Assembly (NCBI RefSeq): GCF_900188355.1
Contig: NZ_FZNX01000003.1
Location: 131,501 to 195,500, forward strand
Origin: Lutibacter flavus
Lineage (GTDB): Bacteria > Bacteroidota > Bacteroidia > Flavobacteriales > Flavobacteriaceae
DNA: 64,000 nt
Direction of reading: 5' to 3'
A program made the position numbers and the translations under genes. The notes under the pieces are model-generated. The model did no database searches. It had not been told where the DNA came from and saw nothing but the letters and a program-made list of their open reading frames with translations. Positions 872-14,372 of this stretch are shown here, piece after piece; positions within the stretch are counted from its first letter, which is position 1; each line of letters starts with the position of its first letter.

Positions 872-1156
872 TTAATAAGTTGTTATTTCTTCTTTTTTAA
901 ATAACTGAACAACCTCTTTATTATTTAAGCCAACAATAAAAAACACTTTGTTTTTTGCAACTGCTTTTCTATATAAAGAAGCAATAAATTGAACTCCGTT
1001 TATATCTAAATCAATAATTTTATTTAAAGACATTTTAATATATGTTGATTGCTCAATTAATAATTCAAAATAATTTTTAATAGAACTCATGTTTTGAGGG
1101 TCCAACGCTCCATTTATTTCATAAATACCCGATTTTTTTGTAATTGCAAGTGCCAT
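872..1156 (-). CDS. STAS-domain protein (anti-sigma-antagonist fold) with Asn at the usual phospho-Ser position
   Basis: This 94-residue protein is a single STAS domain. It has beta strands around residues 2-17, a helix with QNMSSIKNYFELLIEQ, a strand KIIDLDINGVQF, and a second helix before KVFFIVGLNNKEVVQLF. In SpoIIAA-type antagonists the loop after the central strand reads DSSG, and the second serine is phosphorylated by an anti-sigma kinase. Here the loop is D51-I-N53-G, so the acceptor serine is missing and the protein is probably not switched by that route. It is the first gene of a likely operon with the flippase. A near-consensus -7 box GATATTTG lies at 1188-1195 on the minus strand, and three direct repeats lie further upstream. 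Confidence 0.82.
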   Translation of the reverse strand: MALAITKKSGIYEINGALDPQNMSSIKNYFELLIEQSTYIKMSLNKIIDLDINGVQFIASLYRKAVAKNKVFFIVGLNNKEVVQLFKKEEITTY

Positions 1157-1223
1157 AATTAATTGTTTTTATTGTTTATTTCTGATACAAATATCATCAA
1201 CATCTACTTGAAAGGGTTTTGTT

Positions 1224-1277
1224 ATTCGATGAAATGCGCCTTTTTATCGATGAATTATTAGTTCTTTATACTTAAAT
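1224..1277. promoter_or_regulatory. Three direct repeats at 21-22 bp spacing (candidate LytTR operator 1)
   Basis: Plus-strand 11-mers ATTCGATGAAA (1224), TATCGATGAAT (1245) and TATACTTAAAT (1267) have starts 21 and 22 bp apart. The same motif array occurs at 7586-7638 and 14247-14300. The array lies 68 bp upstream of the STAS start codon (minus strand) and just before the plus-strand TPR gene. Helically phased direct repeats of about 21 bp are characteristic of LytTR-domain regulators. The assignment to the LytTR protein at 7647-8351 is inference. Confidence 0.62.
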
Positions 1278-1301
1278 TGCAATACTTAATAACTTAAAAA
1301 A

Positions 1302-3368
1302 ATGAGAATGAAATTTCTTGAAAAAATATGCTTTTCAATAGCTCTAATTATTACGGCTGCGTGTTTTAGTCAAAACATGCAAGAAGGTTTTCAATACTTA
1401 GAAACAGGAAAATTTGATAAAGCTGAAGTCTTTTTTCAAAAAATACTAGTTGATTATCCCGAAAACAAAACCGCAAATCTATGTTATGGAAGAGCAGTTG
1501 GTTTAAATGGTAATGCTCAGAAAGCTGTTGGAATATTTACCGAATTATTAAAAGAATACCCTAAAGATCTTGAAATTGAATTAAACTATGCCGAATCTCT
1601 TTTATGGGGAAGCCAGTTTGAAAAAGCAAAAGGTTACTACACAACACTTGTTGAAGAAAACCCAACTAACTTCGCTGCTTTACTTGGATTTGCAAATACC
1701 TTTTCAAATTTAAAAGAATACGAAAACGCACTTATTTATGTAAATAAAGCGCTAGAAGTTTCAGTTAAAAACCCAAACGCTATGGTTTCTAAAAAATACA
1801 TTCGTTTAGGTTATGCAAATGAGTTTGTTCAAAAACAAAATTATAACAAAGCTCTTTCTCTTTTAAATGAAAATTTAATAGATTTTCCAAATGATAAAGA
1901 AACCTTATTAAATAAGGTAAATATTTATTTAATGACAAAAGAAACAGCTAATGCTACTAAAATTTATGAACAAATAGCAACCAACGCTAAAGACAGTTTA
2001 CTTGCCCTAAACGGATTGGCTTTAGTTGCACATATTGATGAAAATGATAAAAATGCTTTGGAAATCTCTAAAACTGCTTTATTAAAATCGGAAATTGTAA
2101 AAGACACTACTTTAACAAAACAAACTTTTGAACGGTACACACAAGCACTTATTTGGAATAGAAAATTTAAAGAGGCAGAAACCAACATCCATAATTTATT
2201 AACTGATTATGGAACTGAGAATTGGATATTAGCTCTGCGTGCAACTTTAGGAATGTATAGAAGCGATTTTAAAGAAACCATTGCTGATTATAAACAAATA
2301 TTAAAAAAAGATTCTCTCTCTTTTGATGGAAATTTAGGAAGTACTAACGCGTATTTTGCAAATGGAGAAATAAATAAAGCATACAAGGGAGTATTTAAAA
2401 CACTGGGTATTTTTAAAAACCAAAAAGATGCTCAGGGATTTTTAGAAAAAATAAACAAAAATTACACTCCTTTTATTGAAGAAAAACTGAGTTATACTTT
2501 TGATAACGGAGATAACGTTGCCTATTCAACTTTCACAAAAATTACGTTTCCAATTAATACAAGCTTAAGTTTTTCTGCCAATTACGAATATAGAAAAACC
2601 GAGAATACTGTTTCAAAAAATGAAGCAAAATCAAATAATTTTAATTTAGAATTACAATATCAATTTCATCCAAAAATTATATTTAATGCTAAAGCAGGTA
2701 TTTCTCGAGCAAATTCTTACAGTAACGAATATAATCAACTTTTAGCTGAAGTGTTTTTTAAAATGAAACCTCTTAAGCTTCAAGATTTAGAAATTGGATA
2801 TAAAAGAGAAGTACAAAATTTTAATGCCGACTTAGTTGACAAAGAAATTGCATCCAATAACCTTATTCTAAATTATAATCTAAGTACAAATTTTAAATTT
2901 GGCTGGTATACTCAGTATTTATATACAACACAAACAGATGATAATGAAAGAAATCTTTTATTTACTTCCTTGTATTATAATTTTTTATCAAAACCAGCAT
3001 TTAAGGGAGGTTTAAATTTTCAACATATAACATTTAAAAACCAGGTGCCAACTGTTTATTTTAGTCCTGAAAAATTTAATGCTGTAGAAGTATTTATTGA
3101 AATTTCTAAAAATGATAAAAAACTATTTTATAGTTTAAATGCTGCCACAGGTTATCAATATATTGAAGATCAACCAAAGCAATCTACTTATAGAATACAA
3201 GCTAAATTAGGCTATAATGTATCCGACAGATTAATAACAAATGTTTATGGAACTCGAAGTAATATTGCTTCTGCAACAGCAGCTGGTTTTACTTTTACAG
3301 AAGTTGGTTTTGTTTTAAAATGGTATTTAACCAGACAACCTAATTTCTTAAAGAAGTTTATAAAATAA
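1302..3368 (+). CDS. TPR-repeat protein with C-terminal outer-membrane beta-barrel (YaiO/BcsC-like architecture)
   Basis: This 688-residue exported protein starts with a signal peptide (hydrophobic stretch IALIITAACF, then SQN). Tandem tetratricopeptide repeats fill roughly residues 25-390, for example AEVFFQKILVDYP and KAKGYYTTLVEENP. From about residue 400 onward there are alternating aromatic strands such as LSFSANYEYRKTEN and FKFGWYTQYLYTTQ, ending in TEVGFVLKWYLT. TPR scaffold plus C-terminal barrel is the plan of outer-membrane exporters such as BcsC and of YaiO-like proteins. A role in glycan export would suit the nearby flippase but is inference. ATG 1302 is used; the ATG two codons later is equally possible. 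A hairpin follows the stop. Confidence 0.75.
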   Translation: MRMKFLEKICFSIALIITAACFSQNMQEGFQYLETGKFDKAEVFFQKILVDYPENKTANLCYGRAVGLNGNAQKAVGIFTELLKEYPKDLEIELNYAESLLWGSQFEKAKGYYTTLVEENPTNFAALLGFANTFSNLKEYENALIYVNKALEVSVKNPNAMVSKKYIRLGYANEFVQKQNYNKALSLLNENLIDFPNDKETLLNKVNIYLMTKETANATKIYEQIATNAKDSLLALNGLALVAHIDENDKNALEISKTALLKSEIVKDTTLTKQTFERYTQALIWNRKFKEAETNIHNLLTDYGTENWILALRATLGMYRSDFKETIADYKQILKKDSLSFDGNLGSTNAYFANGEINKAYKGVFKTLGIFKNQKDAQGFLEKINKNYTPFIEEKLSYTFDNGDNVAYSTFTKITFPINTSLSFSANYEYRKTENTVSKNEAKSNNFNLELQYQFHPKIIFNAKAGISRANSYSNEYNQLLAEVFFKMKPLKLQDLEIGYKREVQNFNADLVDKEIASNNLILNYNLSTNFKFGWYTQYLYTTQTDDNERNLLFTSLYYNFLSKPAFKGGLNFQHITFKNQVPTVYFSPEKFNAVEVFIEISKNDKKLFYSLNAATGYQYIEDQPKQSTYRIQAKLGYNVSDRLITNVYGTRSNIASATAAGFTFTEVGFVLKWYLTRQPNFLKKFIK

Positions 3369-3394
3369 AAAAAACCGAAGAAAACTTCGGTTTG
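3366..3394. terminator. Rho-independent terminator, stronger on the minus strand
   Basis: The stem AAACCGAAG / CTTCGGTTT has an AAAA loop. An eight-base A run precedes it on the plus strand, so the minus-strand transcript gets the U-tract. It sits just after the TPR gene and would also block readthrough from the FnIII lipoprotein gene coming the other way. Confidence 0.75.
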
Positions 3395-3538
3395 AATTGG
3401 GGTTGATTGGGGTATTAAATAATTTATTTATCTCATTATTAATTTAACCTAATTAATAAGCGCACTTCAAAATATGTTTTATAATAACTAATTTTATAAA
3501 TTTCGATTAAGCAATCCATTTTTTCAGACCAATATATT

Positions 3539-4234
3539 TTAATCCGTTTTAAAATTCCAAACCTGTCCAATTGATTGTGCTCCTTTCGAATCTTTAACAA
3601 CTACTTTCCAATAATACACTTTTGAAGATGCTACTTCAACATTTAAGATTGTTTCAGATTGATTAGCACTTAACTTTTGTAAAGGTGGATTATCTGTCCC
3701 GAAAAATATATCATACACTAAAGTATCATTATCAACATCATTAGCTGTCCACTCCAAAGTTGCAGTAGTTGTTTGAACTACAAAGCTTAATTCTGGGGAA
3801 ACTAAATCAGGTGAAAATGGCTGGTGATTTTCAGAAGCAATACCTTCAGTATAAAATTGAAAGGTAGATGAAAAACTACTTGAGTCATTTTTACTATCTG
3901 TTGCTTTTACTCTCCAGTAATATGCCTTTCCTATATCTAATGCAAAAACTGTTGTTGTTTTTTGAATGCTAGCATTGTGAACCATTTGTAAAAACTGAAT
4001 ATCTTTTGCAATTTGAATTGTATAATTAATAGTATCTCCATCCAAATCTAATGAAGATTCCCAATTAAAAGTAACTGTATTATCAATACACAGTAAATTA
4101 TCAACTGGAGCCATTAAAACCGGTACAGAAGGCGTTCTATTTTCAACAACAGAAATTGATTCTGGATCATCTCCTGATTCCCCGCAAGCTATTAAAGAAT
4201 TTACTACTAAAATTAAATATAAATATTTTTTCAT
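3539..4234 (-). CDS. Lipoprotein with two fibronectin type III-like domains
   Basis: The 231-residue protein begins with a short signal and a lipobox LIAC followed by GESGDDPES, an acidic stretch after the lipidated Cys like surface lipoprotein export signals of Bacteroidota. Two repeats of about 95 residues follow, each FnIII-like. The first has VTFNWESSLDLDGDTINY and AYYWRVKATDSK; the second has TLEWTANDVDNDTLVYD and VYYWKVVVKDSKG. There is no catalytic motif, so a binding or scaffold role on the cell surface is likely. It starts 3 bp after the stop of the large T9SS protein and is surely cotranscribed with it. The ligand is unknown. Confidence 0.8.
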   Translation of the reverse strand: MKKYLYLILVVNSLIACGESGDDPESISVVENRTPSVPVLMAPVDNLLCIDNTVTFNWESSLDLDGDTINYTIQIAKDIQFLQMVHNASIQKTTTVFALDIGKAYYWRVKATDSKNDSSSFSSTFQFYTEGIASENHQPFSPDLVSPELSFVVQTTTATLEWTANDVDNDTLVYDIFFGTDNPPLQKLSANQSETILNVEVASSKVYYWKVVVKDSKGAQSIGQVWNFKTD

Positions 4235-4237
4235 TTT

Positions 4238-7200
4238 TTATTGTTTTACAATTTTAAGAACAACTGGCTTATCTAAATTCAACTTAGCCAAATAAACTCC
4301 TTTTGGTTTATCATCTAAATTTAATTGAATGGTTCCATAAACATTTGAATAATTCTGTTTAGAAATTAACTGTCCATTCATATTATACATTTCAATAGTT
4401 ACTTCTTTTTGTAAAGAAGGCATTGAAATTTGAAACATCCCATTAGTCGGATTAGGATATGTAGTAAATAAATCTGTTGTTTCTATTATTTTTGAAAAAA
4501 CACCTTCACAAATCACATCCGATTTAACTATAACCTCATCACCAGAATTAACATCTAAAGCAAATGAAGTTGATAGTGTTTTTAAAATACTAATCCCATT
4601 TACAAACACATTATATGGTGCTGTTCCTTCCTCAATATCAATAGAAACTTTACCAGAATTCATACTCGCTTTACCTGCTAAAACATTTCCATTTAATATT
4701 TCAATAGAGAAGCAATTACTAACCTTTTCATTTGGATCAAAATCACCTAAAACATTAATACAAAAATTATATACACCTGGAGATAAATCGGAAATCGTAA
4801 TATCTTCAGTTGAAAAATTATATTTCACTCCGTTAATGGTAGTTTCGTAATTATAATTTTTATTAGCTGAAATTATTAATTGTCCATTTTTTATATTTGG
4901 ACAAGTTTCTCCAAATGCAGTAATATTAAAATTATCTGAAGGTAAATTAAAACAACCTGAGGTATTAATATCTGCACCATATGGAGTATTCATACAATTA
5001 TCAAATTCATCTAAAATACCATCTTGATCTGAATCTTGAAGAAAAGAAAGCTTACCTATTTCTAAATTAAAGGCCTTAAATTGGTTAAAATCACCTATTA
5101 CCGAAAATACAACACCAACTATTTTAGTGATTTTTTCAGGTTTACCATTTCCATTTTTAAAATTCTTAAATGCTATCTTATATTCTTTTTCGGATTCATT
5201 TGGTTCTATTTGAAATCTTAATCTATTATTCCAATCTGTTAAATCCTCAGTAACTATAACCACCTCAATAGGCAAATTATTTATAGTACTAAACTCCAAA
5301 ACCCCAAATTCCGCTGCTTCAAAAGCCAAATTACCAGCAATAATATTTCTAAATAAATTTACTACACCTTTAACATTACCTTTTACAGAAGATTTTCTTT
5401 CAATTTCATATTTAGTAGCATTTACTTCAACAGCTCTTTGCTGAACGTCAAATTTAATAGTATTGGCTTGATCTGCTAAATAATCAATTCCCCAAGGCCC
5501 ATCCGCCAAATAAATAGCATCGGTTTGCATAGAGTTTTCACCTTTTATAGAAAATCCAATATCAAATAAGTTTCCTGTTTCTAGAATTATTAATTCCTCA
5601 CTATTACCGGATAATTTTATGTTTTGCGATAAATACTCAGAATTAGACTTTTCTGTACTTCTTTTATTACCTTCAAAGTAAAAAGAACCATCATTTGATT
5701 TATTTTTTATATTTAAATATAACTTTCCATTTTTATATGATCCTTTTTTTACAAAAACAGAAGGAACTCTATTTTCATCCATTATAGTATCGCTAGTTAA
5801 ATTTACAATTGTAGAAGACTCTATATTTGTAATAATTTTATCGGCAATAAAATGTACCTGATCTTTGGTGCTTCCCCAAATTTGGAAATTCATATAATCG
5901 CCTGCTGGATATTGTTCAATACTCCAGTAACTACGTAATTTATTTTCATCAATTAAAAGTTCTATCGAAAAATTTAAAGCATATTCTATCAATCCATTAT
6001 CACGCTCTATTTGAAGCATAATTACTTGATGTTCTTTAACCATAGAAACTGTGGCATCAATTAAAGATGAACTATTTAATCTATCACAAATAACTTTTGA
6101 ATGATCATAAACTTTGCTTGTTGTTTCAGTTGCCAAAACAGCGGCAACTCTGTTTTCTGTATTACCTAGATAATAATCAACTCCAAAAATTTGTATTGCA
6201 TTTGTAACATTTAATAAATCTTCAGCTGTAGATATATGCGCAGTTTCTGTAGTATTGAATCCAGTTTCAGGGAATAAAGCAGCCAAGTTAATACCACTTT
6301 CACTTGATTTACTTTGAATTCCTTTTTTCGAAAATTTAGATTGTTTTTGCTTTTTATTTAGTTGATTGTTAGTTCTTATTCTATTAAAATTTCTTCTAGC
6401 AATAAGGTTTGCCAAGTCTCCATTACTCTCTAATCCTCCATCATTTGCAGAAGTAACTGTAGTAGTTGGTGGAGCTAAAATGACTACTTCTAAAGTTGTA
6501 GCATCTGATTTAGATTGACCATTGGATAACCTACTGGTTGTTGCTACAACCTCATAACTTCCTTCAATAAATTCTGGAGCTAAAATTGATAAACTCCAAG
6601 ATGTGTTATCTATAAGTAAGCCATTTTCTAAACCATATGTATATCCGTTAACGGTAACCGTTAAACTATCATCGCCTAACATCTCTCCACCCCAAGTACC
6701 TGTAAGAGTTGGTGTGGCATCTTCTGTTGTTAATTGATTTATTGTTGGTCTTAAAATTTCACCAGATGTAATATTATTTAAAGTCCCGTTAATAATAATC
6801 CCTAATTCTGCCCACGTTTTATCTAAAACACCAGGTTCCTTATCATTAATACCGCCAATATCACCATTTGATGTTTGACTTGTTGATGTAAATCCATATA
6901 AAGCGATTGCAGAATCGCCATTTATAGCAATTCCAAAAGTATTTAAAACATATGCTTTAATACTTTCTTCAGTAAAACCAAATTCTAACCAGGAATCTGC
7001 ACCTGCTCCATCAATATCCGTTCCTGCAGCATAGTTAAATATTCCTGCATTTCTATTTGTTAATTGTAGTTCAGCATTTTTTGTCCCATTTAACCAAGCC
7101 GTTTGAGATGGTGAAAGTCCTGTTTTTGAATAATCTCTTTGGTGAAAAGACACATAGGGAGTTTGGCTTTTCCAATTGGCTTCAACAAAAACATCGGCAA

Positions 7201-7531
7201 TCATATCTCCAGAAACATCAATTCCTAAATAAAAGGATGTTAATGGATTCATTTCTGCCATTCTTACTCTGAAAAAATAAACATCATCTGTAATTCCATC
7301 ACTAAAAGTAATCGTCTCTTTTTTGGTCTCTAGCAATGCATAATTCTCATTACCTACAAAGTCCTGATCTGCATTTGATTGTTGATCATCATTTGGATCA
7401 AAATTATCACCTTGCATAATTGATATCCATGCTCCACTTGTTTGTTCAACAATACTAGTAGTTTGTGAAAAACCAACTTGCATAACCAGTATTAAAGCAA
7501 TAAAATAAATGAAAAAGTATTTTTTAATCAT
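4238..7531 (-). CDS. Large secreted protein with type IX secretion C-terminal sorting domain
   Basis: This is a 1097-residue protein with signal peptide MIKKYFFIYFIALILV...GFSQ. Its C-terminal sorting domain of type A (about residues 1022-1097) contains TYPNPTNGMFQISMP and ends KPKGVYLAKLNLDKPVVLKIVKQ-like, which sends proteins through the T9SS to the surface or medium. Around residues 830-858 there is a calcium-binding thrombospondin type 3 stretch (DSDQDGILDEFDNC). Around 265-350 there is an Ig-like segment (TPTLTGTWGG, LTVTVNGYTYG). The N-terminal 250 residues look like a beta-rich module with acidic motifs; no protease or glycosidase signature was recognised. It is the first gene of a two-gene operon with the FnIII lipoprotein. 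Three direct repeats lie 55 bp upstream of its ATG. Confidence 0.82.
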   Translation of the reverse strand: MIKKYFFIYFIALILVMQVGFSQTTSIVEQTSGAWISIMQGDNFDPNDDQQSNADQDFVGNENYALLETKKETITFSDGITDDVYFFRVRMAEMNPLTSFYLGIDVSGDMIADVFVEANWKSQTPYVSFHQRDYSKTGLSPSQTAWLNGTKNAELQLTNRNAGIFNYAAGTDIDGAGADSWLEFGFTEESIKAYVLNTFGIAINGDSAIALYGFTSTSQTSNGDIGGINDKEPGVLDKTWAELGIIINGTLNNITSGEILRPTINQLTTEDATPTLTGTWGGEMLGDDSLTVTVNGYTYGLENGLLIDNTSWSLSILAPEFIEGSYEVVATTSRLSNGQSKSDATTLEVVILAPPTTTVTSANDGGLESNGDLANLIARRNFNRIRTNNQLNKKQKQSKFSKKGIQSKSSESGINLAALFPETGFNTTETAHISTAEDLLNVTNAIQIFGVDYYLGNTENRVAAVLATETTSKVYDHSKVICDRLNSSSLIDATVSMVKEHQVIMLQIERDNGLIEYALNFSIELLIDENKLRSYWSIEQYPAGDYMNFQIWGSTKDQVHFIADKIITNIESSTIVNLTSDTIMDENRVPSVFVKKGSYKNGKLYLNIKNKSNDGSFYFEGNKRSTEKSNSEYLSQNIKLSGNSEELIILETGNLFDIGFSIKGENSMQTDAIYLADGPWGIDYLADQANTIKFDVQQRAVEVNATKYEIERKSSVKGNVKGVVNLFRNIIAGNLAFEAAEFGVLEFSTINNLPIEVVIVTEDLTDWNNRLRFQIEPNESEKEYKIAFKNFKNGNGKPEKITKIVGVVFSVIGDFNQFKAFNLEIGKLSFLQDSDQDGILDEFDNCMNTPYGADINTSGCFNLPSDNFNITAFGETCPNIKNGQLIISANKNYNYETTINGVKYNFSTEDITISDLSPGVYNFCINVLGDFDPNEKVSNCFSIEILNGNVLAGKASMNSGKVSIDIEEGTAPYNVFVNGISILKTLSTSFALDVNSGDEVIVKSDVICEGVFSKIIETTDLFTTYPNPTNGMFQISMPSLQKEVTIEMYNMNGQLISKQNYSNVYGTIQLNLDDKPKGVYLAKLNLDKPVVLKIVKQ

Positions 7532-7585
7532 ATCTATATAAATTTCTATGTAAAAATATGTATAGAAACTTATTATAAAACGAAT

Positions 7586-7638
7586 TTTCGCTGATTACAA
7601 AAATACTATCGGTAAAGAGATGATATGTAAAGATGAAT
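7586..7638. promoter_or_regulatory. Three direct repeats at exact 21 bp spacing (candidate LytTR operator 2)
   Basis: Plus-strand 11-mers TTTCGCTGATT (7586), TATCGGTAAAG (7607) and TAAAGATGAAT (7628) are all exactly 21 bp apart. They are weaker copies of the motif at 1224 and 14247 but keep the same phase and orientation. They lie 55 bp upstream of the T9SS protein start codon, between it and the 3' end of the LytTR regulator gene. The role is inferred from the shared layout. Confidence 0.55.
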
Positions 7639-7646
7639 GAATTAAA

Positions 7647-8351
7647 CTACAGTAAATTAAGACGCTTCATTAATTCTGGTCTATTGGATCGGCTAACCGG
7701 AATAACATTATTTCCTATAAGAACACTATTATCTTCAATATCAATAATTTTTGTAGTATTGATAATAAACGATCTGTGTACTTTTAAAAATAAATCATCA
7801 GGTAATTTTTCTTCAATCTTTTTCATTGTAGAATGTACCGTATAATTTTTAGAATCTGTTTTTATTAAAATATAATCACCTTTTGCTTCAATTAAATTAA
7901 TTGTCGCAAAATTTATTTTAACCAATCTTCTATCAATATTTACATACAGTTCATTAATAACTTCGGTATCCTTTGGTTTTGACTCAACTTTATTGGTTTG
8001 AGAAAATAAAGTTGCTTTTTGAACTGCCTTATCAAAACGTTCTTGTGTAACAGGCTTCACTAAATAATCTACAATACAGTCGTATTCAAAAGCTTCAATT
8101 GCAAAGTTTTTATCGGAAGTGGTTAGAATTACTTTAGGTGGATTTTTTAATGTTTGCAACAAATCGAACCCTGTAAATGTTGGCATATGAATATCTAAAA
8201 AGATAAGATCTACACTATTTTGATTTAAATATTTAATGGCCTCAATTGCATTAGAAAAAGATTCAATTAAATTAAGATTTTTATTATTAGAACTTAATTT
8301 ATCGATAATAGCTCTTGCCATTTCTTCATCATCAATAATAATACTTTTCAT
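7647..8351 (-). CDS. LytTR-family response regulator, output of the NO-sensing operon
   Basis: This 234-residue protein has an N-terminal receiver domain (residues 1-120) with acidic pocket D7-D8, phosphoacceptor D53 in LIFLDIHMP, T/S at LTTSD and lysine in LVKPVT. A LytTR DNA-binding domain covers about 130-234 (INLIEAKGDYILIKT, FLKVHRSFIINTTKI). LytTR regulators usually bind two or more direct repeats about two helical turns apart. It is the last gene of the seven-gene operon, 10 bp after the Hpt gene, which suggests it receives phosphate through that relay. Matching repeats upstream of its own operon and two neighbouring operons suggest autoregulation plus control of local targets. Confidence 0.93.
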   Translation of the reverse strand: MKSIIIDDEEMARAIIDKLSSNNKNLNLIESFSNAIEAIKYLNQNSVDLIFLDIHMPTFTGFDLLQTLKNPPKVILTTSDKNFAIEAFEYDCIVDYLVKPVTQERFDKAVQKATLFSQTNKVESKPKDTEVINELYVNIDRRLVKINFATINLIEAKGDYILIKTDSKNYTVHSTMKKIEEKLPDDLFLKVHRSFIINTTKIIDIEDNSVLIGNNVIPVSRSNRPELMKRLNLL

Positions 8352-8361
8352 ACCAAAAAAT

Positions 8362-8685
8362 TTAAACCATTTTTATAAAACAAATCATAGAATTTAAGAT
8401 CTCTTCAAATTCTAATTTAAGATTTAAGTTATCTTGTTTTAACTCTTCTTCATAATCTATTGCAACCTGATAACTCTTTTCGAGACCTAAAATACTAATT
8501 TTATGTTTAATTTTATGCACAAGTTCTGCAGCTTGTTTAAAATTATTTTCGTTTAGAAATTTTTTATAGCTATTTATTTCTTCTGGAAGTTCTTTTTTAA
8601 CAATTATAAGCAGCTTTTCTTCAAATTCTAAATCGCCTCCAGAAATTTCTTTTAAATAATTTAAATTAGGTTTTTCGTATATCAT
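8362..8685 (-). CDS. Histidine phosphotransfer (Hpt) domain protein
   Basis: The 107-residue, all-helical protein carries the Hpt signature ELVHKIKHKISILGL, in which H57 is the expected phosphorylated histidine, followed by K60 and a glycine. Single-domain Hpt proteins shuttle phosphate between kinases or hybrid kinases and response regulators in multistep relays. It lies 2 bp after the second histidine kinase and 10 bp before the LytTR regulator. It may link the H-NOX/FIST kinases to that regulator or to the receiver at the operon front. Neither kinase here has its own receiver domain, so the standalone receiver at 13768-14181 is the natural intermediate in a His-Asp-His-Asp relay. Confidence 0.85.
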   Translation of the reverse strand: MIYEKPNLNYLKEISGGDLEFEEKLLIIVKKELPEEINSYKKFLNENNFKQAAELVHKIKHKISILGLEKSYQVAIDYEEELKQDNLNLKLEFEEILNSMICFIKMV

Positions 8686-8687
8686 AA

Positions 8688-9725
8688 TTATTTTGGAATT
8701 GTAAAATAAAATGTGGTTCCTTTTGAAACTTGACTTTCAAGCCAAATTTTCCCTCCATAAAAATCAATAATTCTTTTTACAATGGCTAAACCAATACCTG
8801 TTGCATTCTGATTATCATCAATTTTCTCAAAAATTTTAAATATTTTATTGAAATATTGTTCTGAAATTCCTTCTCCGTTATCTTTTACATAAAATTCCCA
8901 ATAATTCTCTTTTTCAACAGCACCAACCTCAACAAAACCTTTTTCTTTTTCAATACTTTTTATTGCGTTTTGTATTAAATTTTGAAATAATTGTTGGAGC
9001 CTAAATTTATCTCCTATTATTACAGGTAAATTATTTTTAATAGTTAAGGTTACGTTTTTTGGCACAAATAAAATCTCACTTAATTCTGTTACTAAGTAAT
9101 GAATATCAACATCATATCTATCCAATTCAGCCTTATCAATGGTAGAATAATTAAGAATCCCACTAATTAGGGCATCCATTTTTTCAACATTTTTCAATAT
9201 TAAATCTAGATGGCTTTTACTTTCATCATTAACAACATTTTTATCGTCTTCTAAAACCCAGTTAATTAATGAATCTATGCTTCGCAAAGGAGATTTTAAA
9301 TCGTGTGAAACAATGTGTGCATAATTATTTAATTCCCCATTTTTATTTTCTAGATGTTTTAATAAATCTTCTCGCTGTTTATTTACTCTTAAGATTTCTT
9401 TAGATTGTTCTTCTATGAAGCTCGTTAAATCAACAGCTCGCATAATTTCATCATTATTATCGAAAGGCTTTAACTTTAAAACTCTTACAACGTAATTAAG
9501 GCTTTTAATTATTTTCTTTTGATTTTCAGCATCCTCTCGAAGCTTCGAATTTGCTTCAAAAAGTTCATCAGAGCTAATTCTCATTGCTCTTTGCGACATA
9601 TTTAGCTGATCTTCATAATTATTATAGGAATTATTAATAGCCTCAAAAAAGTTTTTAAGATTTTCGTCCTGTGCTAATTCAGCTGGTAGATGTTTTTTTA
9701 ATTGTCTAATTAATAACGAATTCAC
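8688..9725 (-). CDS. Soluble sensor histidine kinase following the FIST sensor
   Basis: This 345-residue kinase has no membrane span. The N-terminal 130 residues are helical and coiled-coil rich (NMSQRAMRISSDELFEANSKL). A HisKA domain with H141 in YAHIVSHDLKSPLRS follows, then HATPase_c with N box FQNLIQNAIKSIEKEKG, G1 box VKDNGEGISEQY and G2 box ATGIGLAIVKRI. It lacks PAS or other input domains, so it presumably takes its signal from a partner protein, most simply the FIST protein encoded directly upstream, with which it overlaps by 1 bp. Known NosP proteins regulate a cognate kinase encoded beside them. Its catalytic half closely resembles that of the kinase at 10863-13226, so one may derive from the other. 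Confidence 0.92.
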   Translation of the reverse strand: MNSLLIRQLKKHLPAELAQDENLKNFFEAINNSYNNYEDQLNMSQRAMRISSDELFEANSKLREDAENQKKIIKSLNYVVRVLKLKPFDNNDEIMRAVDLTSFIEEQSKEILRVNKQREDLLKHLENKNGELNNYAHIVSHDLKSPLRSIDSLINWVLEDDKNVVNDESKSHLDLILKNVEKMDALISGILNYSTIDKAELDRYDVDIHYLVTELSEILFVPKNVTLTIKNNLPVIIGDKFRLQQLFQNLIQNAIKSIEKEKGFVEVGAVEKENYWEFYVKDNGEGISEQYFNKIFKIFEKIDDNQNATGIGLAIVKRIIDFYGGKIWLESQVSKGTTFYFTIPK

Positions 9726-10858
9726 TATTCACTAATTAAGGTTAAAGTCATTGTTTGATTGTGCAATTCACAATTTTGCGCTCCATAAAAAGGGGCCATT
9801 TCACCATAAGAGTAAAAACCTGCTATACTTGTTTTATCTCCTATACTATTAATTACCTCTTCTATTTCTTCTTCAACTCTTTGATCTAAAACCAATTTAC
9901 GTCCAATACAACTTACCAACAATGCCAATTGTGGATCATTTTTTCGATGTTCCATAGCTAATTTTGCGGCGTCATAGGCACCACCAACAATTGCATCAAC
10001 AGATGCCATCATTAGTTGAACTTTTGAACCTTCTGGAACATCTCCTGCTAAAGTCATTGAATTAATTTCCTTATCTATTGATAAAATAGTTCTTACCACG
10101 GGTTTAGATTTTCCTTTTGGAGTTACATTTAAAGGAAAAAGTAAAGATGCCTGTGGAAGTTCTGAAGCTTTATCACCCAAATATTTTGAATACAAATCTA
10201 ACGCTGGTAAATTGTCAATTTCAAATAAAACATTTCCTTCAGATTTTGTTATTATTCGTTCAGGACCAAAAGGACTCCAACCTCCAACACTGGAAAACGA
10301 AATTTCTAACCATGCTCCATAAAACCCAATAATTATAACTTCTCCTTCTTTAGGATCTTCTTTAAAAGACGCAACTGTTTTTTCAAACCTTGCATCATCA
10401 CCACACATTCCGCCAGTTAAGGAAATATTATTTTTAAAAGAAGTTTCAATGCCTTCAATTAAAGCGCTTCCATTTACAAAACTTCCTTCGGATAAAACAA
10501 AAACGTGTTTTAAGTTTTTTGATGGCAGTTCACTTATTAATTTTTCACCTAACTGTTTTGCGTTCTTATCAAAATCTAAAATATTCGCTCTTTTAATTTC
10601 AAAAGTACTTTTCTCAAACTCAATTGCAGTTACAACAATTGAATTATCATGTACATTTCCCTCTATGATTTCTCCTGAAGTTGATCCAAAAACAAGGTTT
10701 TCATAAGGAAATTGATTTCTAATATCATTTATTACTTCTTTTTGTTCTAATAAAAATCTATTCCCAAAAATTAATACTAATGGGTTATTTAATGGGATGT
10801 TTTCTGATAAAAATTCCCATTCTAAATTATTTATTTTTTGTGCTTGTACTACCTTCAT
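9725..10858 (-). CDS. FIST-domain protein, candidate NosP-type nitric-oxide sensor
   Basis: The protein has an N-terminal FIST domain (from about residue 25; LVFGSTSGEIIEGNVHDN, LTGGMCGDDARFEKT) and a FIST_C domain (about 200-377; LALLVSCIGRKLVLDQRVEEE, then FYSYGEMAPFYG and LHNQTMTLTLIS). FIST proteins were named as sensory input modules. A subset called NosP binds haem and senses NO, controlling an adjacent kinase. I place the start at ATG 10858 (MKVVQAQKINN, 377 codons), which lies just past the stop of the upstream kinase. A longer frame from 10897 would overlap that gene by 35 bp. Placement between two kinases in an H-NOX operon makes NO sensing plausible; haem binding itself is not visible in the sequence. 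Confidence 0.85.
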   Translation of the reverse strand: MKVVQAQKINNLEWEFLSENIPLNNPLVLIFGNRFLLEQKEVINDIRNQFPYENLVFGSTSGEIIEGNVHDNSIVVTAIEFEKSTFEIKRANILDFDKNAKQLGEKLISELPSKNLKHVFVLSEGSFVNGSALIEGIETSFKNNISLTGGMCGDDARFEKTVASFKEDPKEGEVIIIGFYGAWLEISFSSVGGWSPFGPERIITKSEGNVLFEIDNLPALDLYSKYLGDKASELPQASLLFPLNVTPKGKSKPVVRTILSIDKEINSMTLAGDVPEGSKVQLMMASVDAIVGGAYDAAKLAMEHRKNDPQLALLVSCIGRKLVLDQRVEEEIEEVINSIGDKTSIAGFYSYGEMAPFYGAQNCELHNQTMTLTLISE

Positions 10859-10862
10859 TCTT

Positions 10863-13226
10863 TTATTTCTTAATGCTAAAAAAGAAGGTTGTTCCAACGC
10901 CTACTTTACTTTCTAACCAAATCTCCCCTTTATATAATTCTACAACTTTTTTAACAATACTTAGACCAATTCCTGTTGATTTTTCATAATCACCAAGTGT
11001 ATTAAATATTTTAAATATTTTTTCATGGTATTCTTTTGGAATTCCAACTCCATTGTCTTTTATGGAAAAAATATAAAAATCTTTAGCATCTTCAAAATCG
11101 ACCTCTACCAACCCTTTTTCTTTATCAATATAATTAATAGCATTACTAATCAAATTTTGAAAAAGTTGTTGCAATCTGGTTGAATCAGCCTTTATTATAG
11201 GTAACTTATTTTTAATAACTACTTTAATATGATTTGGAATAAATATGGTATCAATAATTCTTTCAACAACCTCATTAACATTCACATCATTATTATTCAT
11301 ACCTTGATCTTCAATGCTAGAATAATTTAAGATATCTCCAATTAATTTATCCATTTTTTCAACCTTATCTTCCATCATGTTTAAATTGATAAGACTATCC
11401 TCTCCAATTTTTTCGGCAAAATCTTCTTTAGTCCAACTTAATAGCGCAGAAATACTTCTTAAAGGCGATTTTAAATCGTGAGATACAATATGCGCATATT
11501 CATTTAATTGCTCATTTTGTTTTTCTAAACTATTTAATAATTCTTCTTTCTGTTTTTCCAAATTTTTTTGTTCAGTGATATCTAAATGAATTCCTATAGA
11601 ACCTATTAACTTTCCATTTACATTGTAATTTGGAGCGCCACTTATAAGCCAATTCCGTGTTTCTCCACTTTTAGATGTTGCTTTTACTTCATAGGAATCG
11701 GAAATACCTCTTTCTCGCCTATTCATTTTTGAATCAAATACTACTTTACTATCATCAGTTAAAATTAAATCAGCTGCTTTTTTACCAACCAATTCGTTCA
11801 ATGAATATCCGCTTATATCACAAAAACTTTGGTTTGCTAATAAAATCACATCATTATTATCAACTTCAAGTAATCCTAAATTCATATTAGCAATTATACT
11901 GCTGTATTTTTCTTTTTGAGCTTCTAAACTCTCCTCATATCTTTTGCCAATAGTAATATCATAATAACTCCATAAATATCCTTTATAAACTCCATCCTGA
12001 ACAATTGGAATACCGTTTCTTTCAATAACTCTGCCGTCTAAAAGTTCTAATTCTTGCTTATAAACCTCATCATTTTTTTGCATTACAAGGCTATTTATAT
12101 CTAAAAATTGTTCAGGATATTTGAATAAATGTTTCACTTTCTCATGAAAATAAGAAACTTTTGACCCTTGGAATGAATTGTCATTTTCACATTGGCCAAA
12201 TAACGAATTGAACTTTTTATTTACTACTTGAATGTTTTTGTGGTTATCTTCTAATAGAATTCCTGATTGAAGATGAACAATTAAAGTTGACAATCTATTT
12301 TCAGAGTCTTTTAACTTTTCTAAAGCTCGCTTTTCTTTGGTAATATCTTCAATGGTTGTAACATGAAATTTCACTTTATTATTAGTATCCTTAACACCTG
12401 TTACAGAAGTTTTTGCCCAAACAATTTCTCCACTTTTTTTTATATACCTCTTATTTAAAGAATAAGATTCAATCTCATCATTATACAACTCACTACGTTT
12501 AATTTCTGAAATTTCTTTATCGTCATCAAAAGTTAAATCTTGAAGTTTTATTTTTTTAAATTCTTCCTGAGAAAAACCAAACATTTTGGTCAACGAATTA
12601 TTTGCCATGAGTAAACCAATGTCATCTTTTCTAGATAAAGAAATTCCAATTGGTGAATGATCCACAATTATATCTAACTGTTTCTTTTGTTGCTCTATAA
12701 GTTCTTTGTAAATATTTTCCTGAGTAATGTCTCTTAAAATACCTTGGGCGGCAATAGGTTTTCCTTCTTTATTATAAATAATACTTGAATTTACCTGAAC
12801 TAGTTTCTCTTCGTTGTTTTTGGTTTTAATTATTGCTTGGTAATTTTTATAAAAACCTTTTTCATATAAGTCTTTAAACGCTTTTTCTGTATACTCTAAA
12901 TACTCTTCCTTAACAATTGCAGTTAAGTTAAATGATTCTTTGCTTGCATCATACCCTAGCATTTCAACAGCAGCATCATTCATACTTAAAACATTACCCA
13001 TAATATCCATAACTATATAGGCATCAATAATATTTAAGAAAACACCTTCTAATTCAGACGTTTTTTGACTTAAAGATTCTTCTAGCTTTTCATTTGAAAC
13101 TTTTAATTCTTCAGAAACCATATAAAGTTCCCGAGATTTCTCTTCAAGAATTTTTTCAGCTGCCTTTCTTGCTGCCTTTTGCCTTTCTAGTGCTCTTTCT
13201 AATATCTCAATTTTACTATTTTCCAT
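10863..13226 (-). CDS. Multi-PAS sensor histidine kinase partnered with H-NOX
   Basis: The 787-residue soluble kinase opens with a charged coiled coil (residues 1-65). It then has about four PAS modules, recognisable by VLSMNDAAVEMLGYD, LMANNSLTKMFGFS, IQVVNKKFNSLFGQ and ILLANQSFCDISGYS with PAC tails such as AQGILRDITQ and GSIGIHLDITEQK. The HisKA domain carries H583 in YAHIVSHDLKSPLRS, and HATPase_c ends with STGIGLSIVKKVVEL. It overlaps the H-NOX gene by 11 bp. H-NOX proteins commonly inhibit a cognate kinase encoded in the same operon, which is the expected relationship here. The PAS set may add further ligands. There is no receiver domain, so phosphate must pass to separate partners. Confidence 0.92.
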   Translation of the reverse strand: MENSKIEILERALERQKAARKAAEKILEEKSRELYMVSEELKVSNEKLEESLSQKTSELEGVFLNIIDAYIVMDIMGNVLSMNDAAVEMLGYDASKESFNLTAIVKEEYLEYTEKAFKDLYEKGFYKNYQAIIKTKNNEEKLVQVNSSIIYNKEGKPIAAQGILRDITQENIYKELIEQQKKQLDIIVDHSPIGISLSRKDDIGLLMANNSLTKMFGFSQEEFKKIKLQDLTFDDDKEISEIKRSELYNDEIESYSLNKRYIKKSGEIVWAKTSVTGVKDTNNKVKFHVTTIEDITKEKRALEKLKDSENRLSTLIVHLQSGILLEDNHKNIQVVNKKFNSLFGQCENDNSFQGSKVSYFHEKVKHLFKYPEQFLDINSLVMQKNDEVYKQELELLDGRVIERNGIPIVQDGVYKGYLWSYYDITIGKRYEESLEAQKEKYSSIIANMNLGLLEVDNNDVILLANQSFCDISGYSLNELVGKKAADLILTDDSKVVFDSKMNRRERGISDSYEVKATSKSGETRNWLISGAPNYNVNGKLIGSIGIHLDITEQKNLEKQKEELLNSLEKQNEQLNEYAHIVSHDLKSPLRSISALLSWTKEDFAEKIGEDSLINLNMMEDKVEKMDKLIGDILNYSSIEDQGMNNNDVNVNEVVERIIDTIFIPNHIKVVIKNKLPIIKADSTRLQQLFQNLISNAINYIDKEKGLVEVDFEDAKDFYIFSIKDNGVGIPKEYHEKIFKIFNTLGDYEKSTGIGLSIVKKVVELYKGEIWLESKVGVGTTFFFSIKK

Positions 13227-13764
13227 TTGGTTCAGAAATTAAAAATCGAACCTCGGTTCCGTCTTCTTTCAATAATTCAAGAGTAAGATTAAAGTTTTTA
13301 CCATAATGTTCAAAAGTTTTCTCAATTAACGCTTTTGCAAACATATAAAGCCCCCTATCCGAATAATAAATCATTTCTAATGATTCATTATCTTTCCTTT
13401 TAATTTTAAAAGTTGGTAGTTCTGCTCCCGGATATAATTTTCTAACTTCAACATGAATATGATTCTCAATAGATTCTAATAAATCCATCGGTGTTTTGTA
13501 ATATTTAATAATATCTGGGTGATTACTATGTAATACTTTAAAAAAGTATAAACCATATGCATAAATTAAATCTTGCACGGGGACATTAACTTTTTCACTC
13601 AAATTTGAAATTAAACTTAACATTTCACCAAAATCATATGTTCCAATTGATGTATAAACCCCTTTTGATTTTAATTCTGATTTATAAATAATATAATCAA
13701 CTGTTTCTAGTCCAAAAGTTTCTTCAACCATTTCTAAAAACTCCGTAAATACAATTCCTTTCAT
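13216..13764 (-). CDS. H-NOX (haem-nitric oxide/oxygen binding) sensor protein
   Basis: This 182-residue standalone protein matches the H-NOX (HNOB) fold in length and motifs. MKGIVFTEFLEMVEETFG is the typical start. The proximal haem ligand is H104 in NHIHVEVRKLYPGAELPTF, with the conserved YPGAELP segment after it. The haem-propionate clamp YxSxR is Y133-x-S135-x-R137 in MIYYSDRGLYM. Such proteins bind haem in the cytosol, sense NO with high affinity and control a kinase or cyclic-di-GMP enzyme. The gene sits 3 bp after the receiver gene and overlaps the PAS kinase gene by 11 bp, implying translational coupling. I cannot tell by eye whether a distal tyrosine for O2 binding is present. Confidence 0.93.
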   Translation of the reverse strand: MKGIVFTEFLEMVEETFGLETVDYIIYKSELKSKGVYTSIGTYDFGEMLSLISNLSEKVNVPVQDLIYAYGLYFFKVLHSNHPDIIKYYKTPMDLLESIENHIHVEVRKLYPGAELPTFKIKRKDNESLEMIYYSDRGLYMFAKALIEKTFEHYGKNFNLTLELLKEDGTEVRFLISEPNGK

Positions 13765-13767
13765 TTT

Positions 13768-14181
13768 TTAACCTTTTATTAATTCGTTACAACTCCAATA
13801 ATCTAAAACTCTTTTGATCAATTCAACATAGTCACCAAATTTTAAAGGCTTTATTACATATCCTGCAACCCCAATTTTATAACACTCTAAAACATCCTTA
13901 CGATTATTTGATGTGGTTAAAATAATAGTTGGTATATACCTTAATTCGCTATCATTTTTAAGAATGCTCAAAAATTCTATCCCATTTAATTTTGGCATGT
14001 TTAAATCTAATAAAATAATATCAGGTAATCGATCTTTTTTAAATAGAATACTCAACGCTTCTTCGCCGTTTTTAGCCTCAATAATTTTATGTGGATATTC
14101 AAGTTTCGAAATTGTTCTGTTCAATTTCATAACTTCTATCATATCATCTTCTATAAGAAGAATTGTTAAGTTTTTTTTCAT
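13768..14181 (-). CDS. Single-domain response regulator (CheY/Rcp1-like receiver)
   Basis: The 137-residue protein is only a receiver domain. It shows acidic residues E11-D12-D13, phosphoacceptor D59 in IILLDLNMPKLNG, the switch threonine region IILTTSNN and lysine in YVIKPLKFGDY. It has the longer alpha4-beta5 form seen in receivers that partner phytochrome-type or PAS kinases. As the first gene of the signalling operon, followed after 3 bp by the H-NOX gene, it probably acts as the phosphate intermediate between a kinase and the Hpt protein, or as an output that binds a protein target. No DNA-binding domain is present. Three direct repeats lie 66 bp upstream of its start codon. Confidence 0.92.
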   Translation of the reverse strand: MKKNLTILLIEDDMIEVMKLNRTISKLEYPHKIIEAKNGEEALSILFKKDRLPDIILLDLNMPKLNGIEFLSILKNDSELRYIPTIILTTSNNRKDVLECYKIGVAGYVIKPLKFGDYVELIKRVLDYWSCNELIKG

Positions 14182-14246
14182 TTTAAATGGTGAATTCTAA
14201 TTAATACATGTAAAAATGCTGAAATAATTGGTATTTAAACCATAAA

Positions 14247-14300
14247 TATCGTTAAAAACTTAATTAACTATCGATGAATGGTAGATAAGTATCGTTAAAT
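14247..14300. promoter_or_regulatory. Three direct repeats at 22 and 21 bp spacing (candidate LytTR operator 3)
   Basis: Plus-strand 11-mers TATCGTTAAAA (14247), TATCGATGAAT (14269) and TATCGTTAAAT (14290) form the best of the three arrays; the middle copy is identical to the one at 1245. The last two copies continue with GGTA. The array is 66 bp upstream of the signalling operon start and about 87 bp upstream of tgt on the other strand. Equal distance and orientation at all three loci favour the minus-strand operon as target. Confidence 0.65.
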
Positions 14301-14372
14301 GGTAAACAATAAATTAAATTTAAACTAATTACTGAAGTTAATTATATTTTTTCTTAAACAAAACCGATTCTG

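Follow-up and report, generated by a model that had tools for sequence, protein, structure and literature searches.

A candidate LytTR operator connects a probable gas-sensing relay with exopolysaccharide and surface-protein genes in flavobacteria

Three phased repeat arrays lie upstream of minus-strand genes in Lutibacter flavus

Do three sets of evenly spaced repeats in the genome of Lutibacter flavus (Flavobacteriaceae) serve as shared operators of one signalling protein, and if so, what does that protein control? We examined a 64,000-nucleotide stretch of contig NZ_FZNX01000003.1 (positions 131,501 to 195,500; assembly GCF_900188355.1), which we term the window. An earlier note had described three 11-mers near TATCGWTRAAT in each of three intergenic regions, with starts 21–22 bp apart. 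This observation proved correct: all nine copies were found at 1224/1245/1267, 7586/7607/7628 and 14247/14269/14290, with 21–22 bp between starts, and TATCGATGAAT is unchanged at 1245 and 14269. Matches to TATCG[AT]T[AG]AAT are 8/11/9, 8/9/9 and 10/11/11 of 11, so that two copies carry three mismatches. The three arrays are the top three independent triplets on both strands of the window (32, 28 and 26 of 33), although this consensus was derived from the arrays themselves. Between array and minus-strand start codon lie 65, 54 and 67 bp, and all three arrays share one orientation.

To test the arrays independently, we built a matrix from 24 operon promoters with the window's two sites removed. 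This matrix gave hits of 12 bits or more only at the three arrays (34.4, 17.8 and 16.7 bits), while an order-3 Markov null expects 0.074 such pairs per window at 14 bits and 0.029 at 16 bits. A blind direct-repeat search found only the array near 14.2 kb, so the other two rest on the matrix and on relatives. Single sites are not enriched in the genome: TATCGNTRAAT has 17 matches against 36 for the reversed pattern, and TRTCGAYGAATGG with up to two mismatches has 130 against 134. The signal is carried by the phased pairs, and by their recurrence in relatives.

The three arrays precede a sensing operon, a T9SS gene and STAS-flippase genes

The element is best described on the reverse strand, as gene-sense CCATTCRTCKACA repeated every 21 bp, with two strong copies and one degenerate copy ('CGAA') at the promoter end, rather than as three equal 11-mers. 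Where a TAnnTTTG -7 box is found, it usually lies 27–28 bp beyond an array. Array A (14247..14303, +; degenerate copy 14247-14260, then 14269-14282 and 14290-14303) precedes the minus-strand operon that runs from a receiver gene to the LytTR gene, and has no -7 box within one mismatch at 27–28 bp. Array B (7586..7641, +; degenerate copy 7586-7599, then 7607-7620 and 7628-7641) precedes a minus-strand gene for a T9SS-secreted protein (4238..7531, -; Por_Secre_tail). It is the weakest of the three (16.7 bits), but has a -7 box, TATTTTTA (7551..7558, -), 27 bp after the proximal copy with one mismatch to TAnnTTTG, and a counterpart before the T9SS orthologue at L048:3532, in one of the related loci described below.

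Array C (1224..1280, +; copies 1224-1237, 1245-1258 and the weak 1267-1280) precedes a minus-strand STAS-domain protein (872..1156, -; Pfam STAS). The -7 box GATATTTG (1188..1195, -) lies 28 bp after the proximal copy, again with one mismatch. The STAS gene is presumably co-transcribed with a polysaccharide flippase-like protein (1..846, -; 420 aa in full, running off the window), which matches Polysacc_synt at E 2.5e-4, below the gathering cut-off. We considered the TPR-barrel gene at 1302 as the target of array C and rejected it, because array orientation and the -7 box both point to STAS. In a model search of the L. flavus genome, array C was found by a model not trained on it (E 0.010), and array B was not returned. 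The same array as array C was found before STAS in two other genomes, G011 and G033.

The operon encodes the parts of a proposed phosphorelay ending in a LytTR regulator

The first gene of the operon encodes a stand-alone receiver (13768..14181, -; Pfam Response_reg), in which D59 and K111 are invariant in 18 of 18 aligned sequences. It is followed by an H-NOX (HNOB) protein (13216..13764, -), a probable haem NO sensor whose nearest solved chain is 6bde (E 2e-62). Its H102, H104 and YxSxR motif are invariant in 15 of 15 aligned sequences. The proximal histidine and YxSxR define the haem pocket of this family; haem and NO binding were not measured. The next genes encode a PAS-rich histidine kinase (10863..13226, -; Pfam PAS, HisKA and HATPase_c), a FIST-domain sensor (9725..10897, -; Pfam FIST and FIST_C) and a second histidine kinase (8688..9725, -; HisKA and HATPase_c). 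The FIST protein is only distantly NosP-like, scoring 62.7 bits against a NosP equivalog cut-off of 450, so we call it a FIST sensor only. The operon ends with an HPt phosphotransfer protein (8362..8685, -; Pfam Hpt), with H57 and H61 invariant in 18 of 18 aligned sequences, and a LytTR response regulator (7647..8351, -; LytTR 9.9e-20 and Response_reg 8.5e-18), in which D7, D8, D53 and K99 are invariant in 17 sequences. We propose the latter as the operator-binding protein. The operon thus holds the kinases, receiver, HPt and response regulator of a four-step phosphorelay with conserved His and Asp residues, though the flow of phosphate is inferred.

To determine how constant these parts are, we searched 60 related operons by tblastn with the window's proteins. 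HPt and the PAS kinase are present in 60 of 60, H-NOX was recognised in 45, FIST in 41 and neither in 7, although distant sensors could be missed by this search. One or two kinase H-box motifs occur in 61 of 61. Short Lutibacter operons show only receiver, kinase and LytTR, with the array, and no HPt match. Nitric oxide is therefore a probable but variable input, and not the defining one.

The arrays recur with fixed phasing across flavobacterial loci

We next asked whether the arrays recur beside the same LytTR protein elsewhere. We took the best 80 of 575 relatives as named loci and excluded eight that are the same contigs as training genomes, leaving 72 loci (1.38 Mb) for this test and for the surveys of operon content, H-box motifs and -7 boxes; congeneric species among the 72 are not independent. 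One locus, L058, in which the receiver is cut, was left out of the training set, and it has an array too. With the matrix from 24 orthologous operons we found 187 arrays of 15 bits or more, against 2–11 with ten column-permuted matrices, and 79 against 0 at 25 bits. With spacing left free from 8 to 64, 81 of 86 pairs of strong sites are exactly 21 bp apart. Arrays precede 60 of 64 receiver-gene matches (the exceptions being L159, L167, L210 and L228), 17 of 26 STAS matches and 18 of 26 GT4 matches, but only 1 of 9 receiver-GT2 matches. The earlier note had specified that triplets at random frequency and position would count against a shared operator; the model search of the L. flavus genome and the 72-locus comparison both approach this test, and neither refutes the reading.

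We then examined what lies after the arrays, here using all 80 loci. Of 158 ORFs found after 172 arrays, 67 are receivers, 22 match the T9SS protein at least in part, 18 are STAS and 16 GT4, and others include UDP-glucose dehydrogenase and a mannose-1-phosphate guanylyltransferase. In the 72 loci, an exact TAnnTTTG lies 10–70 bp after the second copy in 63 of 156 arrays, and 93 have no exact box in that range. Of the 63, 22 are at 27–28 bp and 38 at 48–49 bp, against 0.46 expected per 4-bp window, so that 60 of 63 boxes lie 27–28 bp after a second or third copy. No conserved -33 element shows in the consensus of these two promoter classes.

The L. flavus genome itself contains more than the three sites of the window. 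Further targets are a receiver-glycosyltransferase, a GT4, two paralogous 70-aa proteins and a small RNA, the last after the array at C8:1087217. Rfam gives nothing at gathering level for the copies of this RNA that were searched. We considered Rfp18 as its identity and did not retain it; an sRNA with a third stem-loop that affects metalloprotease mRNAs has been described (PMC9723704), and no sequence comparison was possible. Two weaker own-genome hits stay undecided: C8:811378 (19.2 bits) has TAGTTTTA at 27 bp but no gene immediately downstream, and C6:333724 (20.9 bits) lies inside an ORF upstream of a guanylyltransferase-like gene, without a box at 27–28 bp. The null allows 0.78 pairs per genome at 19 bits and 0.39 at 20 bits. 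The GT4 gene occurs in 10 of 80 genomes, all among the 25 (L. flavus plus 24) with the regulator (P 2e-6, kinship ignored). Of these ten genes, four have an array of 13 bits or more, three a weak one at a similar place and three none.

Discussion

We consider it likely, with high confidence, that the three arrays are operators of the LytTR regulator encoded at 7647-8351. In this model, two copies of CCATTCRTCKACA on one face of the helix, plus a degenerate copy ending 27–28 bp before a Bacteroidota sigma-A -7 box, would place the phosphorylated regulator where a -33 contact would be, so that it recruits polymerase as an activator. The signal would come through a Spo0-like relay encoded by the operon itself, from H-NOX and FIST sensors to two histidine kinases, then the stand-alone receiver, HPt and the LytTR regulator. 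The regulator would activate its own operon and a set of exopolysaccharide (STAS-flippase, GT4, receiver-GT2), T9SS and small-gene targets, so that a diatomic gas such as NO tunes matrix and surface building. Our data show the arrays, their conservation, phasing, promoter placement, target classes and co-occurrence with the regulator, whereas binding, activation rather than repression, the order of the relay and NO as ligand are inferred, as we have neither binding nor expression data. The earlier note's interpretation, a self-contained LytTR regulon tying nitric oxide to glycan export and a secreted surface protein, is supported: the shared operator, its LytTR geometry, autoregulation of the sensing operon and the link to polysaccharide and T9SS genes are borne out and extend to dozens of flavobacterial loci. 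It requires correction in the form of the repeat, in the number of sites and in the constancy of NO as input.

Among alternatives, it is possible that the arrays are operators of this regulator but that the relay senses mainly something other than NO, such as PAS ligands, redox or a FIST ligand, with H-NOX as one optional input. The absence of a recognised H-NOX from 15 of 60 operons and of FIST from 19, and the short Lutibacter operons, favor this view, while the conserved haem-pocket motif, the presence of H-NOX in 45 of 60 operons and the presence of both sensors in the window's operon speak against it. Repression from these sites appears unlikely. CoxC represses from three LytTR repeats overlapping the -35 box (PMC11347149), and the proximal copy here lies near the -33 region, but the lack of a conserved -33 element suits an activator-dependent promoter, and most LytTR regulators activate (PMC11347149).

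We regard as more doubtful still that another regulator, co-inherited with the operon, binds the arrays while the LytTR protein acts elsewhere, even though up to 70 candidate homologous stretches were listed per genome. The geometry is that of LytTR sites, and the 60 of 64 receiver matches with an array are in loci picked for this LytTR gene. At E 0.02 or better, arrays occur in 20 of 25 genomes with the regulator (24 plus genome G050 with a 52% relative) and in 2 of 24 without; part of the 20 is circular because those arrays trained the model, and one of the two appears to be the same operon cut by a contig end. Chance phasing in AT-rich intergenic DNA could be invoked from the two copies with three mismatches and from the blind search, but we take it as refuted by the held-out comparison with permuted matrices, the 21-bp phasing and the preferred distances to the -7 box.

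Published LytTR operators (AgrA, YpdB, S. mutans HdrR/BrsR) are 9–11 bp direct repeats with 10–13 bp spacers, some triple, upstream of the core promoter and often before the regulator's own operon, and the arrays fit this definition in repeat spacing and promoter placement. The BrsR site ACCACTTAT shares 7 of 9 bases with ACCATTCAT here, with the same 21-bp period. In our arrays, the promoter-proximal copy is degenerate and is placed relative to a Bacteroidota -7 box. RcoM and CoxC also combine a LytTR domain, three direct repeats about two helical turns apart and a diatomic gas as signal, but control cox genes in response to CO as single proteins (PMC11347149), whereas here a multi-protein relay ends in a LytTR response regulator next to polysaccharide genes. 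In Shewanella and Vibrio (HnoC branch, HqsK-LuxU, NosP-VpsS), H-NOX or NosP lies beside a kinase, with phosphotransfer and control of biofilm, and the outputs described are c-di-GMP enzymes, HnoC or the LuxU/quorum-sensing path (PMC6769237; PMC8738867); here the proposed output is a LytTR DNA-binding regulator acting on EPS and T9SS genes, with two sensors in one operon. LytTR regulatory systems (LRS) likewise autoregulate through direct repeats before the operon promoter but pair the regulator with a membrane inhibitor (PMC6193735). LRS regulators have no receiver domain. The present system does not fit that class, as its regulator has a receiver domain and a relay, and no membrane-protein family was found among the seven operon proteins, for which no transmembrane prediction was run. 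Other literature consulted includes PMC4227749, PMC4847170, PMC10057207 and PMC7356049.

A broader reading, which we consider about as likely as not, is that Flavobacteriaceae share a conserved gas-sensing switch in which H-NOX and FIST sensors feed a Spo0-like relay whose LytTR output, through a promoter-anchored 21-bp repeat operator, turns exopolysaccharide export, T9SS surface proteins and, in this species, a sibling small RNA on or off together. It would be the family's counterpart of the c-di-GMP route by which NO controls biofilms in Proteobacteria. If our main interpretation is true, it gives an operator code for a LytTR regulator in Bacteroidota, of which we saw no earlier case in literature listings, not all of them followed to the papers themselves. 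This code can be read in genomes, so that from the array alone targets can be listed in many flavobacterial genera, and it makes directly testable how NO might control matrix and surface proteins in this family, through transcription of EPS and T9SS genes.

Phased repeat arrays in the window and in orthologous operons

The earlier note described nine 11-mers arranged as three arrays in separate intergenic regions. Our data confirm that observation: all nine 11-mers are where the note placed them, with 21-22 bp between starts, and the three arrays are the three best independent triplets on both strands of the 64-kb window. The distances from array to start codon are 54-67 bp. We refer to the arrays as A (upstream of the receiver-to-LytTR operon), B (upstream of the T9SS gene) and C (upstream of the STAS-flippase genes). 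Because the consensus used to rank the triplets came from the same arrays, an outside test was needed. The window lies in contig 6 of the 3.89-Mb genome of Lutibacter flavus, a member of the family Flavobacteriaceae.

The operon downstream of array A occupies the minus strand from 14181 to 7647, and encodes a stand-alone receiver, an H-NOX protein, a PAS-rich histidine kinase, a FIST-domain sensor, a second kinase, an HPt protein and a LytTR response regulator. In alignments, the likely residues of phosphotransfer are invariant: D59 and K111 of the receiver (18 of 18 sequences), H57 of HPt (18 of 18), and D53 and K99 of the LytTR receiver domain (17 of 17). The H-NOX protein retains H102, H104 and the Y-x-S-x-R motif in 15 of 15 sequences. 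Its nearest solved chains are 6bde and 6bdd, and 6BDD is listed as the Ka (Kordia algicida) H-NOX (PMC7356049). The FIST protein reaches 62.7 bits against the NosP model, far below the cut-off of 450, so we term it a FIST sensor rather than NosP.

To obtain a phylogenetic footprint, we searched 79 other genomes and found LytTR orthologs of 60% identity or more in 24 of them. The 5' end of the receiver gene could be placed in the window and in 23 of these 24 loci (in the remaining locus, L058, the gene was cut), and in these 24 we placed an array with a 21-bp period upstream of the receiver. Since the search maximized the score at this position, this count alone is not a test, and the arrays at two loci (L062 and L064) are weak. 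The matrix built from these sites has 15.7 bits. With the window's own sites removed, the matrix gives hits of 12 bits or more in the window only at the three arrays: 34.4 and 19.5 bits at array A, 17.8 and 14.9 bits at array C, and 16.7 bits at array B. A first null of 30 simulated windows contained no pair of 14 bits, and a larger null of 20 Mb gives an expectation of 0.074 pairs per window at 14 bits and 0.029 at 16 bits. A group of short Lutibacter operons (loci L052-L060 and L072-L074) shows only receiver, kinase and LytTR matches, without HPt or gas sensors, yet these operons keep the array.

The arrays recur in held-out flavobacterial loci

The earlier note had proposed a matrix scan of this genome and its relatives, with triplets at random frequency and position as the outcome that would count against its reading. 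We scanned a sequence collection with the LytTR alignment, which returned 575 relatives, and kept the best 80, whose records carry the names of flavobacterial genera or MAGs. Eight were the same contigs as training genomes and were dropped. In the other 72 loci (1.38 Mb), 187 arrays reach 15 bits, compared to 2-11 for ten column-permuted matrices and 5 for the reversed matrix; at 25 bits the numbers are 79 against 0. When spacing was left free between 8 and 64 bp, 81 of 86 pairs of strong sites were exactly 21 bp apart. Neither this comparison nor the model search of the L. flavus genome described below gave the random outcome.

We next examined which genes follow the arrays in these 72 loci. 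Arrays lie before 60 of 64 receiver matches, 17 of 26 STAS matches, 18 of 26 GT4 matches, 1 of 26 flippase matches (it follows STAS) and 1 of 9 receiver-GT2 matches, and 41 of 72 loci have an array within 450 bp after the LytTR gene. Some loci hold two receiver or STAS matches. The orientation of the arrays relative to the LytTR gene is 182 to 5. In Flavobacterium davisii (locus L167) and F. covae (L210), no array was found before the receiver gene, and some cluster genes match in separate pieces (T9SS, and TPR or kinase), as if the system were decaying; the split matches could also be an effect of how alignments were chosen. Parts of the block of TPR-barrel, STAS, flippase and GT4 genes stay next to the LytTR operon in several genera (L049, L051, L061, L064, L068 and many of loci L152-L231), so linkage as well as the operator is conserved.

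A degenerate third copy is positioned relative to the -7 box

We aligned 131 held-out arrays of 20 bits or more in the sense of the target gene. The alignment gives CCATTCRTCKACACTTAA...CCATTCATCGACA, followed again 21 bp on by a third, degenerate copy in which mainly CGAA is kept. This explains why the earlier note saw triplets with one poor member. TAnnTTTG is the sigma-A -7 box of flavobacteria (PMC9723704). Of 156 arrays of 18 bits or more, 63 have an exact TAnnTTTG 10-70 bp after the second copy: 22 at 27-28 bp, 38 at 48-49 bp and 3 elsewhere, compared to 0.46 expected per 4-bp window. The two positions are one 21-bp period apart, and when aligned on the box both classes show CGAA at the same place within 1 bp, so the promoter-proximal copy is anchored and arrays grow by whole steps away from it. 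No -33 element stands out in the consensus of either class. Published LytTR sites are 9-11 bp direct repeats with 10-13 bp spacers (PMC4847170; PMC11347149), and triple operators are known for RcoM and CoxC (PMC11347149). The BrsR site, ACCACTTAT-12 bp-ACCGCTTAT (PMC6193735), has the same period and 7 of 9 bases of ACCATTCAT.

Array-linked genes in L. flavus and its relatives

In the L. flavus genome, a search with the site model recovers array C, on which it was not trained (E 0.010), but not array B, and finds further arrays. The array at position 130786 of contig 6 precedes a GT4 glycosyltransferase, and the array at position 123559 of contig 6 precedes a fusion of a receiver domain to a family-2 glycosyltransferase; each has TACTTTTG 27 bp after the proximal copy. 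Counterparts of the fusion in genome G033 (14.3 bits) and in genome G045, from another genus (26.0 bits), also carry arrays. The fusion gene itself (L075:4834-5967; contig 6, about 122.3-123.5 kb) suggests direct phospho-control of a sugar transferase in the same polysaccharide cluster.

Two arrays on contig 8 (28.2 bits and 23.3 bits, the latter reaching only E 5.8 in the model search) each precede a member of one orphan family of about 70 aa (73% identical), with TAGATTTG 48-49 bp on. These paralogous proteins of 69 and 70 aa are encoded at L107:1609-1818 and L108:1705-1917, and the first has no Pfam match. Among 80 genomes, the only other genome with a match is G031 (44% identity), and a degenerate copy with stops lies beside the first gene. 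A third array on contig 8 (28.9 bits) precedes a small-RNA-like element (L108:1575-1658; contig 8, about 1087.3 kb). The element is multicopy, and consists of a variable 5' stem-loop, an invariant core CTTTTTCATAGCAATTTTC and a terminator hairpin. The exact core is found in all 38 same-genus genomes searched (1-7 copies) and in 40 of 80 genomes, and never with the reversed pattern. Fold z-scores are -4.0 to -6.6 in five copies, and no Rfam family was detected at gathering level in the copies searched. One L. flavus copy sits under a LytTR array, while nine other copies examined do not.

Across all 80 collection loci, 158 of 172 arrays of 18 bits or more have an ORF downstream. These comprise 67 receivers, 22 T9SS proteins, 18 STAS proteins, 16 GT4 proteins, 2 H-NOX-first operons, groups of 2-5 that include UDP-glucose dehydrogenase, a chain-length-determinant-like protein (below its cut-off), CAP and outer-membrane efflux proteins, and 12 singletons, one of which is a guanylyltransferase. 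The theme is exopolysaccharide and cell surface. The GT4 gene is found at E 1e-90 or better in 10 of 80 genomes, all of them among the 25 (L. flavus plus 24) that have the regulator (P 2e-6, which ignores kinship). Four of the ten have an array of 13 bits or more, three have a weak one at a similar place, and three have none.

We also asked whether regulator and sites occur together. With the site model, arrays at E 0.02 or better are present in 20 of 25 genomes with the regulator (the 24, plus genome G050 with a 52% relative) and in 2 of 24 without. Part of the 20 is circular, and five genomes with an array by direct reading were missed by the stricter filters. One of the two exceptions, genome G030, appears to be the same operon cut by a contig end. 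G050 has no array at its operon but two elsewhere.

A proposed relay and its inputs

The component parts of this system are of known kinds. Systems pairing H-NOX or NosP with a kinase and phosphotransfer act on biofilms in Vibrio and Shewanella through c-di-GMP, quorum sensing or HnoC (PMC6769237; PMC8738867). We found no paper on the present combination, or on a Bacteroidota LytTR operator, in a literature search confined to openly licensed articles and in which two papers containing the words LytTR, Bacteroidetes and direct repeat were not examined.

Overall, the earlier note's interpretation of a shared LytTR operator linking an NO-sensing operon to polysaccharide and T9SS genes is supported, with a wider set of targets and a less constant role for NO than it proposed. 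Most likely, the sensors act on the kinases, and phosphate passes to the stand-alone receiver, to HPt and to the LytTR regulator, which would bind the two good copies and the anchored degenerate copy and replace the missing -33 contact. In this view, the regulator activates its own operon and the EPS and surface genes. While the arrays, their phasing and their neighboring genes are read directly from the sequences, the order of the relay and the sign of regulation are inferred, and binding of the LytTR protein was not assayed. NO is the best guess for one input because of H-NOX. In tblastn searches with the window's proteins, H-NOX is found in 45 of 60 operons, FIST in 41 and neither in 7, while HPt and the PAS kinase are found in 60 of 60, so the sensors look like exchangeable modules on a fixed relay and operator.
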